NCBI GenBank assembly: GCA_017468395.1
Contig: JAFUIR010000003.1
Coordinates: 1 to 48,382, forward strand
Direction of reading: 5' to 3'
Length of the DNA: 48,382 bases
Source of the DNA: Lachnospiraceae bacterium
Lineage (GTDB): Bacteria > Bacillota > Clostridia > Lachnospirales > Lachnospiraceae
Shown: positions 3,425-40,205 of the stretch, piece after piece
Layout of the letters: every line of letters begins with the position of its first letter
How positions within the stretch are numbered: position 1 is the first letter of the stretch
Program-made: the position numbers and the translations under genes
The notes under the pieces: generated by a model
The model's input: the letters and a program-made list of their open reading frames with translations, nothing else
Database searches by the model: none
What the model was told of the DNA's origin: nothing

Positions 3425-3518
3425 TTTTAAATAGAAATATGTGTTATAAAGAAAACCTTGGAGATATGGTTTTTTGTGGAGATAACAATTAAGATTTCAT
3501 ATGTTTACAGCAGGGGCT

Positions 3519-4104: not shown

Positions 4105-4147
4105 GCATTTCACTCTAAATTTTTTTGCCAGATTTTTTCCGTCAGCA

Positions 4148-4313
4148 TTTTTTGACTCCAAGTAATAAGTGATAGGAGAAAAAGTTGAAGAAAATTTCAT
4201 GGAATTTTTGCAATCAGCAATTTTTGACTCCAAGTAATAAGTGACGGAGAAAAAAGTTGAAGAAAATTAATTGAATTTTTGTAATTAGCTTTTTTTGACC
4301 CTAAGTACTAATC
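4148..4313 (+). repeat. Three imperfect 71-72-bp tandem direct repeats upstream of the integration operon
   Basis: The core TTTTTGACTCCAAGTAATA occurs with GACTCC starting at 4154 and 4226. A diverged copy, TTTTTTGACCCTAAGTACTA, has GACC starting at 4297. The spacings are 72 and 71 bp. Each of the first two cores is followed by GTGA, GGAGAAAAA and GTTGAAGAAAAT. The copies end just before the ribosome binding site of the 4330 gene, so they are plausible binding sites for an excisionase, integrase or autoregulator. Confidence 0.65.
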
Positions 4314-5056: not shown

Positions 5057-5197
5057 GTGGAAAATGTTGCGTTTATGTATTTGCGATATATACCAAACGA
5101 CATGCTGAAATGGTTGAAAAATTCAAGGTTTTATGGTAGTATAGATGGGATATTTGATGTTTCCTTATCTAAGCTACAGCCTAGAAAGGAGGCACAA

Positions 5198-6337
5198 ATG
5201 GGGAAATCCCTTAATGGTAAAGAATTAGGAAAAGGAATTTCACAGAGGAAGGATGGTCTGTATCAGGCACGTTTCGTAAATCGTTTCGGTAAAAGAGAGA
5301 CGATTTATGCGAAGACGCTGAATGAGATTCGACATCAATTAAGGACAGAGCAGTACGAAGACGAGAAGATGCTTAACGTCATAAGCAAGGAAATGACTCT
5401 GGATGAATGGTATGAGATTTGGATGAATACCTGTAAGAAGAATTGCAGAAGCTCTACAAAGGAGACATATGCAAGTCATTACAGAAGGATTCAAAAGGAG
5501 CTAGGTTGGATAAAACTGACTAACCTAAATCTCATCGTATTACAACAGGTGTTCAATGAACTTAGAAGTGACAATGAGCGGAAGAACTCTAAAAAGATTT
5601 TGGCGGATATGCTGGAGAAAGCCATTGATGCAGAATTGCTAATCAAGAATGTGGCAAAGCAAATCAATACAAAGGTCAGCCAAGAGGAGCAAAAGGAACG
5701 TCGTGTACTTACTGTCAAAGAAACGGAGGTTTTTCTAAAGCAGGCAGAATCGAGTATTTATTACAATCTGTTTATAGTGGCTTTGGAAACAGGACTTCGT
5801 ATCGGAGAATTGATGGCATTAACTTGGTCAGATATAGATATGAAAAAGAAAGTGTTGTATGTGCGGCATACATTGTGCTATTTTCGTAAGGATGGAAAAT
5901 ACACCTTTGAAATGCACGACACTAAGACGAGGAACGGCAGAAGAACGATTCCGCTCACGCAGAAAGCCTATGAAGCCCTGCGAAGACAGAAGATTCAGAA
6001 GTTGGAAATCGAGTTAAAAGGCAAAAAGGCTTCCGAAGAATACGAGAATCTGGTGTTTGTTACAAAGAATAACAGACCGACACAGCAGTTTATCGTACAA
6101 GAAGGAATCGAAGCCTGTGTCCGCAACATACAAAAGGAACATCCGGAATTTGAGAAGTTCTCACCACATTGTTTTCGCCATACCTTTGCCACAAGAGCAA
6201 TCGAAAACGGAATGCAGCCAAAGACCTTGCAAAAGATATTAGGGCATGGTTCATTGCAGATGACCATGGATTTGTATTGTCATGTGACAGATGATACATT
6301 GTTTGAGGCGATGAGGTTGATGGAAAAGGCAATGTGA
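5198..6337 (+). CDS. Tyrosine recombinase / integrase (Tn916-type)
   Basis: I place the start at the ATG at 5198, which has AGGAGG 6 bases upstream. The frame is open 47 codons further back but has no ribosome binding site there. The 379-residue protein has an N-terminal arm-DNA-binding domain (residues about 15-65), a SAM-like core-binding domain, and a catalytic domain. The catalytic set is R201 (T-G-L-R-I-G-E), H324 and R327 (H-C-F-R-H-T-F), H350 (L-G-H-G) and nucleophile Y360 (D-L-Y-C-H), all present. It would integrate and excise the element whose right part fills the start of this window. The stop lies 150 bp before pyrE, so the attachment junction is probably in that gap. Confidence 0.95.
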   Translation: MGKSLNGKELGKGISQRKDGLYQARFVNRFGKRETIYAKTLNEIRHQLRTEQYEDEKMLNVISKEMTLDEWYEIWMNTCKKNCRSSTKETYASHYRRIQKELGWIKLTNLNLIVLQQVFNELRSDNERKNSKKILADMLEKAIDAELLIKNVAKQINTKVSQEEQKERRVLTVKETEVFLKQAESSIYYNLFIVALETGLRIGELMALTWSDIDMKKKVLYVRHTLCYFRKDGKYTFEMHDTKTRNGRRTIPLTQKAYEALRRQKIQKLEIELKGKKASEEYENLVFVTKNNRPTQQFIVQEGIEACVRNIQKEHPEFEKFSPHCFRHTFATRAIENGMQPKTLQKILGHGSLQMTMDLYCHVTDDTLFEAMRLMEKAM

Positions 6338-38600: not shown

Positions 38601-39418
38601 TATGTAAAAATAAAATTGCACAGCCCACAGTATTTATTCCGGTATTCCCCGGTACAAACTGTGAGTACGACTCTACAAAAGCATTCGAGAGAGCCGGTGC
38701 GAAAGTAGTAACAAAAGTATTCAGAAACATGACCGCAGAGGACATCAGACAGTCCGTGGAAGAGTTTGAAAAAGCAATTGCACAGGCTCAGATTATCATG
38801 TTCCCCGGCGGATTCTCCGCAGGTGACGAACCGGACGGAAGTGCCAAGTTCTTTGCTACCGCATTCCAGAATGAAAAGATGAAGGAAGCGGTTATGAAAC
38901 TTTTGAACGAGCGTGATGGTCTGGCACTTGGTATCTGTAACGGTTTCCAGGCGCTGATTAAACTCGGTCTGGTGCCTTATGGCGAGATTACCGGTCAGAA
39001 AGAGGATTCTCCTACTCTGACTTTCAATACCATTAACAGACACATCTCCAAGATGGTATACACCAAGGTGGTTTCCAACAAGTCTCCTTGGCTTAAAAAC
39101 GCGCAGCTCGGAGCAACATACTGCACACCCGCTTCCCACGGTGAAGGCCGTTTCGTAGCACCTAAGGAGTGGATTGACAAACTGTTTGCAAATGGTCAGG
39201 TGGCAACCCAGTATGCTGACATTAACGGAAATGTTTCCATGGATGAAGAGTGGAACGTAAACGGTTCCTATGCATCTATCGAAGGTATTACATCTCCTGA
39301 CGGCAGATGCCTCGGTAAGATGGCGCACGTTGAAAGAAGAGATGCATCTGTGGCTGTGAACATTTGCGGCGAACAGGATTTGAAGATCTTTGAGTCCGGC
39401 GTTGAATACTTTAAATAA
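35618..39418 (+). CDS. purL: Phosphoribosylformylglycinamidine synthase, single-chain
   Basis: The start is the ATG at 35618 (TTGGAGGA 7 bases upstream), giving 1266 residues. The enzyme converts FGAR and glutamine to FGAM with ATP. It is the fused form: an N-terminal PurS-like part, two PurM-like ATP-binding halves (W-S-D-H-C-R-H-T-T-F, N-H-P-T-E-I-E-P-F-G-G-A), and a C-terminal class I glutaminase (P-G-G-F-S-A-G-D and nucleophile C1107 in G-I-C-N-G-F-Q). The fused form is usual in Clostridia as well as Proteobacteria, while Bacillus uses separate PurS/L/Q. It stands alone between its own promoter and terminator. Confidence 0.96.
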   Translation: MGNVRRIYVEKKEPFAVKAKELHEELKNYLGISGITKVREFIRYDVENISDEVFERACKTVFSEPPVDDLYLETLPVGADAKVFSVEFLPGQFDQRADSAVQCVKFLKEDEEPIIKTAVTYVLEGQVDHDEFAKIKAYCINPVDSRETDLVKPETLVTVFDDPADVIVFENFKDMPENELKNLYDSLGLAMTFKDFKHIQNYFSSEEHRNPTMTEIRVLDTYWSDHCRHTTFSTELTDVEFGDGYYRTPLETTYQSYLDTRAEIFAGRSDKFVCLMDLALMAMRKLKKDGKLDDMEESDEINACSVVVPVEMEYDGEKVTEEWLVFFKNETHNHPTEIEPFGGAATCLGGAIRDPLSGRGYVYQAMRVTGAADPTVPVADTLKGKLSQKKLVRGAASGYSSYGNQIGLATGLVKEIYHPNYVAKRMEIGAVMGAAPRKNVIRETSDPGDIIILLGGRTGRDGCGGATGSSKVHTEESIETCGAEVQKGNAPTERKIQRLFRREEVSRLIKKCNDFGAGGVSVAIGELAAGLVVELDKVPKKYAGLDGTELAISESQERMAVVVDPKDVDTFLAYAHEENLEAVPVATVTKEPRLVLNWRGKDIVNISRAFLDTNGAHQETTVKVDIPDEKENYLEKYAVPAVEKAVEEGDVKKAWMALMGDLNVCSQKGLVEMFDASIGAGSVYMPYGGKYQLTETQAMVAKLPVLRGKTDTVTMMSYGFDPYLSSWSPYHGAVYAVTESLAKIVANGGDFKKVRFTFQEYFRRMTADPSRWSQPFAALLGAYDAQIGYGLPSIGGKDSMSGTFNDIDVPPTLVSFAVDVATAGEIVSPELKKAGNKLVRFSIEKDDYAIPVYEKVMELYDGIHELTKNGVVVSAYALDAKGVAAALSKMAFGNKLGVCLDENLTMPELFGEGLGDIIAEVDASKMAVLEASGIAYRVYGSVTEEAVFAYGNVKVDLEEALNAWKKPLEKVFPTIAVKDTTPVDSKVYKAEQIYVCKNKIAQPTVFIPVFPGTNCEYDSTKAFERAGAKVVTKVFRNMTAEDIRQSVEEFEKAIAQAQIIMFPGGFSAGDEPDGSAKFFATAFQNEKMKEAVMKLLNERDGLALGICNGFQALIKLGLVPYGEITGQKEDSPTLTFNTINRHISKMVYTKVVSNKSPWLKNAQLGATYCTPASHGEGRFVAPKEWIDKLFANGQVATQYADINGNVSMDEEWNVNGSYASIEGITSPDGRCLGKMAHVERRDASVAVNICGEQDLKIFESGVEYFK

Positions 39419-39431
39419 AGTGTAATGACAG

Positions 39432-39469
39432 ACACCCCACAGTGAAAAAGGAGTAATTGTGGGGTGTTT
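39432..39469 (+). terminator. Rho-independent terminator after purL
   Basis: ACACCCCACA (39432-39441) pairs with TGTGGGGTGT (39458-39467), followed by TT. A 10-bp GC-rich stem with a 16-base loop. Confidence 0.8.
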
Positions 39470-39489
39470 GAAAAAATATGAAAAAAAGA

Positions 39490-39518
39490 TTGTAAAAAAA
39501 TCATTATTTTCGTATAAT
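39490..39518 (+). promoter_or_regulatory. Promoter of the RNA antitoxin / toxin operon
   Basis: TTGTAA (39490-39495), 17 bases, TATAAT (39513-39518). Transcription should begin near 39525, just before the tandem repeats. Confidence 0.75.
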
Positions 39519-39555
39519 ATAGGTGAGAATAAAATTAATTATTCTCCTTCATCAA

Positions 39556-39659
39556 AGATGAGTCCTGTGACGGTTCTGACAGGACGGTAAAATAAAAACT
39601 GACCGAGAGATGAGTCCTGTGACGGTTCTGACAGGACGGTAAAATAAAAACTGACCGAA
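39556..39659 (+). repeat. Two 52-bp tandem direct repeats
   Basis: Units 39556-39607 and 39608-39659 differ only at the last base. Each begins AGATGAGTCCTGTGACGG and ends ACTGACCGA. They lie directly before the toxin-like gene. Confidence 0.95.
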
Positions 39660-39675
39660 TGATGAAGAACTTCAA

Positions 39676-39700
39676 CGAGAGGTTGTGGCCTCTCGTTTTT
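39676..39700 (+). terminator. Rho-independent terminator between antitoxin RNA and toxin gene
   Basis: CGAGAGG, loop TTGTGG, CCTCTCG, then TTTTT. In type III loci this terminator limits toxin mRNA relative to antitoxin RNA. Confidence 0.92.
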
Positions 39701-39719
39701 CTGTAAAAGGGGACAAAAG

Positions 39720-40205
39720 ATGAATTTAATAGAGAGTGATTTTCAGATTCTAAGGTTGACTGATGCTTTTTATGCAACGTATCCTAATCCGCCATATGTG
39801 GAGATTCTTAAGAAAAGAAAACGAGCATATAATTGCATTTTATTTCAAACTCATTATGGATATTTTATATGCATTCCATATAGAACAGAGATTACGCATA
39901 AGTATGCGTATCATTTTAAGAATTCAGCCCGTTCAAGAGTACATAAATCAGGATTGGATTATACGAAGATAGTTATTATCGGTAACAAAGAGTATATTGA
40001 TAATGAAAATGCTTTGGTAGATCGGGATGAATATAATGAAACAGTGATTCAATTGAAGAGAATCAAAAGGGAAGCGTTGGAATTTGTCGAAGATTATGTG
40101 GCACATGTCAGTGGTAAAAAAATTATGCATACGAAGGAATATAAACGTAGGTATAATTTTTCTCCACTAAAGTATTTTCATCGTGAATTGGGGATTGGGG
40201 ATTAG
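39720..40205 (+). CDS. Type III toxin, CptN/TenpN-like endoribonuclease
   Basis: The 161-residue protein matches the pattern I know for CptN/TenpN toxins: an N-terminal F-Y-x-x-Y-P-N-P-P, the strand-turn I-P-Y-R-T-E-I-T-H-K-Y-A-Y, G-L-D-Y-T-K-I-V-I-I with a following Y-I-D, a helical tail, and the closing F-S-P-L-K-Y-F-H-R-E-L-G-I. Size (about 160 aa) and lack of signal peptide fit. Such toxins cut RNA, often at A-rich sites, and are held by their repeat RNA. Many also abort phage infection. The terminator and 20 bases separate it from the repeats, and GGGG lies before its ATG. Family assignment is from memory of the motif and is strongly supported by the repeat architecture. Confidence 0.8.
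   Translation: MNLIESDFQILRLTDAFYATYPNPPYVEILKKRKRAYNCILFQTHYGYFICIPYRTEITHKYAYHFKNSARSRVHKSGLDYTKIVIIGNKEYIDNENALVDRDEYNETVIQLKRIKREALEFVEDYVAHVSGKKIMHTKEYKRRYNFSPLKYFHRELGIGD

Follow-up and report, generated by a model that had tools for sequence, protein, structure and literature searches.

A TenpIN-family type III toxin-antitoxin locus on the chromosome of a Lachnospiraceae bacterium, and toxin-less relatives of its antitoxin RNA as putative decoys in viral contigs

The analyzed stretch of DNA (48,382 nucleotides of contig JAFUIR010000003.1 from a Lachnospiraceae bacterium, hereafter the window) contains a promoter-like sequence, two tandem repeats, an intrinsic terminator and a gene for a protein of 161 amino acids (Table 1). 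The locus is preceded by a gene for a PurL-like FGAM synthase and followed by a BlaI/BlaR1-like gene pair. An empty-site comparison via the neighbouring BlaI gene was rejected, the other matches being at most 49% identical and taken for paralogues. At the other end of the window, a 72-bp tandem repeat of 2.4 copies (positions 4142-4311) is followed, after about 750 bp, by an integrase gene (5057-6337) with a Tn916-type DNA-binding domain.

Table 1. Features of the locus, in positions of the window.
Feature	Position	Strand	Evidence
Sigma-70-like promoter TTGTAA-17-TATAAT	39490..39518	+	10/12 matches; 0.7 expected by shuffling
Outer helix P0, 5' strand (CTTCATCA), in leader	39547..39554	+	minimum-energy fold of 39536-39680; cognate pairing tests
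Tandem array, period 52, 2.2 copies	39554..39665	+	Tandem Repeats Finder
Antitoxin unit 1, pseudoknot core	39562..39605	+	position by unit scan; fold by covariation
Unit 1, parts	S1 39562-39568 with 39579-39585; S2 39571-39575 with 39601-39605; A-rich loop 39586-39600		
Antitoxin unit 2, pseudoknot core	39614..39657	+	position by unit scan; fold by covariation
Unit 2, parts	S1 39614-39620 with 39631-39637; S2 39623-39627 with 39653-39657; A-rich loop 39638-39652		
Outer helix P0, 3' strand (TGATGAAG), in trailer	39660..39667	+	pairing tests, fold
Intrinsic terminator separating antitoxin from toxin	39674..39702	+	shuffle count, fold energy
Shine-Dalgarno-like AGGGG	39708..39712	+	by eye
tenpN toxin gene, 161 aa, ATG start	39720..40205	+	ORF, family profile, alignment

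The two 52-nt tandem repeats, described in the original prediction as differing at one base, were recovered by Tandem Repeats Finder with 95% matches and a score of 210. The 44-nt pseudoknot cores of both units are identical, and the sole base difference is located just 5' of the cores (A at 39555, G at 39607). As had been proposed, the unit is longer than the ToxI-type repeats, given as 34-36 nt (PMC5086642), and than the CptI unit, given as 45 nt and with other stem and loop sequences (PMC4627078), but its length is usual within the clade. Among 57 loci scanned upstream of the toxin, two of which (L002 and L015) appear to be one locus, the period was 50-53 nt in 21, 46-47 nt in 6, and 45 nt and 34 nt in one locus each. 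A clear repeat was lacking in 28, including single-unit, cut and remote loci. One of the loci (L008) combines one unit with an open full-length toxin frame; therefore, tandem repetition is not universal.

The promoter-like site named in the original prediction is present. With one such site observed and 0.7 expected in shuffles of the region, it is on its own no better than chance; TATAAT-like boxes were found by eye in similar positions in a number of relatives. The terminator, which together with the gene following it had also been recognized correctly, consists of a 10-pair stem (39674-39697) and a T-rich tail (one found, 0.1 in shuffles). The fold of the stretch 39666-39712 has an energy of -15.4 kcal/mol (z -2.18), which was equalled in 5 of 200 shuffles.

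The toxin matched the NCBIfam equivalog NF047358 (TenpIN) with 158.4 bits (curated cut-off 90) over the whole profile (1-141 of 141). The proposed assignment to the type III systems, for which a profile search had been suggested, was thereby borne out, and the locus is therefore a new TenpIN family member of the ordinary kind. The toxin also matched phrog_8049 of PHROGs (2.9e-19), the function of which is not annotated. There was no relevant match in Pfam and PADLOC, and none in the PDB by single sequence. The best profile match in the PDB, CptN of 4rmo, was reached at an E-value of 0.11 only, which was considered too weak for membership in CptN. ToxN membership was also rejected, since there was no ToxN match among those listed from Pfam, NCBIfam, PADLOC and the solved structures. 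The protein had been called CptN/TenpN-like, of which the TenpN part stands, and it is not assignable to CptN by its sequence. No second TenpIN match besides the window toxin was found in the same genome at E <= 0.001.

With a TenpN-family toxin, tandem repeats directly upstream of it, a Rho-independent terminator in between and a pseudoknot unit, the feature is very probably a chromosomal TenpIN-family type III toxin-antitoxin locus. That it is an inactive remnant without a working toxin-antitoxin pair is highly improbable. Relatives with a broken frame or without a toxin are common (in-frame stops in the toxins of L016, a single-unit locus, and of L024; twelve toxin-less loci), but the window toxin is of full length, has no stop and carries the 8 columns that are invariant in the alignment of 24 toxins, and S1 and S2 are complete in both units. 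L016 was dropped from this alignment because of its in-frame stop, and L024 and remoter toxins never entered it.

The order of the parts and the toxin family are those of the TenpIN system of Photorhabdus luminescens, which is described as aborting coliphages when expressed in E. coli (PMC5086642). In the group of the window, the units have GUGACGGUUCYGAC and GGUAAAAUAAAA cores. The NCBIfam TenpIN model matched 28 of 397 genomes of the same family (15 above the cut-off), 25 of 392 of the same order (16 above) and 8 of 398 of the same phylum (2 above), the window genome being included each time. None of the 14 control genomes was matched; at the laxer E <= 1, two were, both below the cut-off. 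Six relatives from genome contigs are labelled Lachnospiraceae (three), Ruminiclostridium, Dielma and Clostridia. In plasmids, 192 records with TenpN-like matches were found, all below 60% identity.

For the analysis of the antitoxin fold, 82 units (45 distinct) were collected from toxin-bearing and toxin-less bacterial loci and from viral loci. The collecting pattern missed the units of L003 (added later), the unit of L016 and the second unit of L087. The units share one plan, an H-type pseudoknot with a 7-bp stem S1 and a stem S2 formed by CGGUU and GACCG. The 5' strands are separated by 2 nt, 3 nt precede the 3' strand of S1, and the A-rich loop comprises 14-15 nt. The original prediction had paired a loop CGGT with a downstream ACCG, which is correct and extends by one base pair to the S2 given here, and it had proposed covariance modelling of the repeats. 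Over the 45 distinct units, toxin-linked and toxin-less units pooled, 98.0% of the cells are paired compared to 84.2% in shuffled and 18-54% in slid controls. Two-sided changes were found in 7 of 12 pairs, which none of 500 shuffles equalled; the number of pair types was equalled by 3 of 500.

Nearly all of the covariation lies in S1, above all in pairs 2-5, which are fixed by no search pattern. S2 is nearly invariant: a single compensated change was seen (CGGCU/GGCCG in L007), and U-A replaces U-G five times. Its pairing of 99.1% is partly by construction, since the collecting patterns fix the 5' strand and restrict the 3' strand. The H-type pseudoknot of the unit is thus supported by compensatory change, mainly in S1.

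CptIN of Eubacterium rectale (PDB 4RMO) has the same architecture, an H-type pseudoknot with a long A-rich loop. This long loop of CptI is described as packing against a stem in the crystal structure (PMC4627078). The A-rich stretch of the window units, which had been proposed to lie in the toxin groove, is present, and is more likely a long pseudoknot loop that would pack against a stem in the same way than a strand only in the groove. The window repeats brought no family of Rfam up to its gathering score. A hammerhead ribozyme, considered for the motif GAUGAGUCC...GGAC, was rejected; in 39400-39750, Rfam gave 6 matches up to E 10, none of them to a hammerhead family and all of unrelated appearance.

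In the fold of 39536-39680, an 8-bp helix (P0) joins the leader to the trailer. The fold has a z-score of -1.87 and was equalled by 8 of 200 shuffles; S1 pairs in it across the two identical units, as the program handles no pseudoknots. The pairing energy of cognate leaders and trailers was compared with permuted combinations of representatives. For 19 toxin-linked loci, one of which (L031) has a toxin fragment, none of 20000 permutations was as good. The trailer of L087 in this first test was an inter-unit junction, because the pattern had missed the second unit. With a duplicate locus, a locus with a toxin fragment and the misread trailer taken out, the result for the remaining 16 loci was again 0 of 20000. 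Fifteen other toxin-less loci gave 5 of 20000 and the toxin-linked and viral loci pooled 0 of 20000; the 7 viral representatives alone were not significant (1512 of 20000). The units are thus enclosed by an outer helix of leader and trailer.

In the proposed mechanism, one transcript would carry the two pseudoknot units inside the leader-trailer helix, and the terminator would let only some of the transcription continue into tenpN. In analogy to ToxIN and CptIN, the endoribonuclease TenpN would cut the precursor at the unit junctions and would then be held in a protein-RNA complex. If the antitoxin supply failed, as in phage infection, free TenpN would cleave RNA and growth would stop; toxicity and phage defence are expected for the window locus on the same analogy.

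Units also occur without a toxin. Among 24 genomes of the same family with a unit, an open TenpN frame was found beside it in 11, a fragment in one (G007) and none in 12, as judged in about 1.2-1.5 kb downstream with a toxin model from 27 loci. By eye, several of the twelve toxin-less loci keep promoter, terminator and toxin scraps, and these look like decay. Since 12 of the 24 lack an adjoining toxin, solitary units can also be decay remnants. In one toxin-less bacterial locus (L125, about position 1501), the unit resembles a fusion of the front half of one repeat with the back half of another, and S1 is broken (5 of 7 pairs).

Two exact DNA patterns of the unit were searched against IMG/VR and matched 25 viral contigs each, 28 combined; a third pattern matched 23, all within the 28. 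Reversed patterns matched no viral contig, and there were no matches in the controls of the genome search among the matches listed. The TenpIN model matched only three of the 28 contigs (L069, L078, L087). An antitoxin-like unit without a TenpN match was therefore present in 25 of the 28, which are 7.6-142 kb in length and may be fragments. The contig of L078 (G1124) has a complete TenpIN locus and, about 1.1 kb upstream of its toxin, a further TenpN-like match (122832-123191) that is weaker and contains an in-frame stop. Patterns for two remoter TenpI groups gave no viral contig, and the TenpN protein query with strict peptide patterns found no match in viral contigs.

The viral contigs were clustered into lineages I (6 contigs), II (10) and III (2) and 10 singletons. 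A terminase model matched 21 of the 28 contigs (all but L067, L068, L069, L073, L086, L087 and L088); since it also matched 11 of 14 bacterial and archaeal controls, this supports a phage origin but does not prove it. Lineages I and II and L085 have terminase and portal genes close to the unit, L077 has a portal gene directly before it, and L084 has a tape-measure gene nearby. The terminases of lineages I and II are 68.7% identical (comparisons of L070/L072 and L062), and the two lineages are related phages.

In 19 of the 25 toxin-less contigs (lineages I, II and III, and L073), one unit is found among tRNA genes or next to them. In lineages I and II, it is flanked by tRNA-Phe(gaa) and tRNA-Lys(ttt) in the order Tyr-Ser-Phe-unit-Lys; in L075, the sequence of which begins near the unit, only tRNA-Lys was called. 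The unit of lineage III is flanked by tRNA-Gly(ccc) and tRNA-Leu(tag), and that of L073 adjoins tRNA-Gly(ccc). No tRNA gene was called in the examined stretches of L068, L077, L084, L085, L086 and L088. The toxin-less viral units are probably decoy antitoxins, which would be released by tRNA processing and bind TenpN during infection.

In searches of annotated phages, the window protein had no match, and the window repeats gave only 21-bp matches (E 0.3) in 13 Corynebacterium phage records. A viral unit matched one record (MT835481.1, E 0.3), which by eye contains a degenerate unit. The terminase of lineage I matched 70 records, all below 60% identity, and the 12 matches listed comprise phages with Firmicutes hosts and one human faecal phage. 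In a search made with no positive control, this terminase was found in none of 160 genomes of the family and none of 159 of the phylum, which counts against the decoy reading.

An alternative is that the toxin-less viral units are relics of TenpIN loci that were gained by recombination and lost the toxin, the RNA now drifting. L084 fits this explanation, as it keeps the front of a locus (promoter-like site, two units, terminator) with a toxin frame that ends early by eye, and such a partial locus is a plausible route of origin of the toxin-less viral units. Furthermore, S2 is broken in L068 and has a C-A mismatch in L070 and L072, and half of the unit-bearing genomes of the same family have no toxin beside the unit. 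Two units without a toxin are also present in L077, which has a degenerate third by eye, and in L085. However, lineages I and II keep the unit between the same two tRNA genes although their terminases differ by 31%. Compared to the 44 bases of the lineage I unit, L062 differs at 3 and L070 and L074 at 4 positions. Two of these differences together make up a compensated S1 pair (positions 5 and 20), in contigs with no TenpN match, and in L070 one of the four is the S2 mismatch. S1 is paired in 7 of 7 positions in every toxin-less viral unit scored, which likewise speaks against drift. The P0 strands of the two lineages differ and yet can still pair. The units of the tRNA clusters show no toxin remnant by eye, unlike several of the toxin-less bacterial loci. 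Taken with this evidence, an origin as drifting relics is unlikely.

A second alternative, that the unit of the phage tRNA clusters is an RNA with a function unrelated to TenpN (e.g. in tRNA-cluster processing) and ancestral to the TenpIN antitoxins, is quite improbable. It would be in line with the presence of ROOL, skipping-rope and tmRNA in those phage regions and with the conservation pattern of lineage II, in which the unit is conserved to 97.7%, the downstream flank to 95.9% and the upstream flank to 62.3%; since the downstream flank is conserved too, the comparison of unit and flanks does not discriminate. On the other hand, L077, with its unit after a portal gene, and L085, L086 and L088 have units with no tRNA genes in the examined stretches. 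In addition, the toxin-less viral cores are 0-3 substitutions away from a toxin-linked bacterial unit, except for L073 with 6 substitutions by an ungapped count and a loop that is one base shorter.

The other RNAs of these regions were located as follows. The Rfam skipping-rope RNA was found in L067 (773-842), L082 (1201-1270) and L073 (11103-11175); like TenpI units, it is also found adjoining tRNA-Gly(ccc). ROOL RNA and tmRNA occur in L065 and tmRNA in L061. In L062 and L065 of lineage II, a strongly conserved but unannotated stretch of about 200 nt, possibly another structured RNA, lies between the TenpI unit and tRNA-Lys. A gene of L073 (9202-10722), near the unit and the skipping-rope RNA, matches the PHROG family 'RNA-binding protein' (phrog_850, E 2.3e-110).

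Against the decoy reading, the single-strand folds of the stretches from L063 and L062, calculated with a program that handles no pseudoknots, were no better than shuffles (z -0.90 and -1.06), and the best fold of L062 is without S1. When nine viral stretches were scanned with a descriptor, 11 pseudoknots of this kind were detected, compared to 1.0 in crude shuffles. Ten of the 11 are TenpI units already collected; none was found in L070. Immediately after its TenpI unit, L088 carries a second H-type pseudoknot of similar plan (reverse strand, 3425-3458), which likewise has an A-rich loop and whose stems are GTCGTG/CACGAC (S1) and GTAGC/GCTAC (S2). By eye, a helix GATAGC/GCTATC encloses both pseudoknots. 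A pattern derived from the second pseudoknot matched no viral contig other than L088.

The decoy reading can be extended to the proposal that several tailed-phage groups keep under selection a dedicated solitary TenpI RNA as putative TenpN inhibitor, mostly among tRNA genes and with its own closing helix, and that L088 stacks a second pseudoknot in a shared outer helix, possibly as a decoy aimed at a different type III toxin. The chance of this extended proposal being right is put at slightly better than even. One CptI repeat is reported to be fully antitoxic in E. coli, and therefore a single viral unit could suffice (PMC4627078). For ToxI-Pa, 2.5 repeats are reported to be needed and for antiQ at least 1.8 (PMC5086642).

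The nearest precedent for the viral solitary units is the pseudo-ToxI of phage phiTE, described as a type III antitoxin RNA copied in a phage genome and able to suppress the toxin (PMC3475682). Wild-type phiTE is described as having 1.5 repeats and no full unit, with escape only after expansion or recombination (PMC3475682). In contrast, the units found here are complete, occur in several viral contig groups, mostly among tRNA genes, and match TenpI and not ToxI. Racr is described as a solitary phage copy of a host defence repeat that acts as a decoy; it mimics CRISPR repeats and binds Cas proteins (PMC10651486), whereas the repeat here is that of a type III antitoxin and the decoy role is putative. 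TifA of T-even phages also counters a type III toxin, but is described as a protein inhibitor (PMC10853763, PMC9391042), and the TifA homologues tested are reported not to have neutralized E. coli TenpN (PMC10853763). In the titles and abstract openings of the open literature, no solitary TenpI unit in phages was named among the matches listed.

Taken alone, the window locus is ordinary in kind, one more TenpIN system. In the copies searched, the PDB yielded no TenpN-like chain by sequence and Rfam no family for the window repeats; what the comparison presented here contributes is a TenpI antitoxin fold supported by covariation, with the outer helix as an extra part. The main point of interest is the complete toxin-less units in viral contigs, relatives of the window antitoxin, which from their sequences are best read as RNA decoys. 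If they are decoys, TenpIN would have faced phages long enough for complete antitoxin RNAs to persist among phage tRNA genes, and one otherwise unexplained RNA of the phage tRNA clusters would have a function. The units would also offer a direct test of TenpIN as a phage defence in these bacteria. Such RNA anti-toxins, if real, would form a standing class comparable to the solitary CRISPR-repeat anti-CRISPRs.
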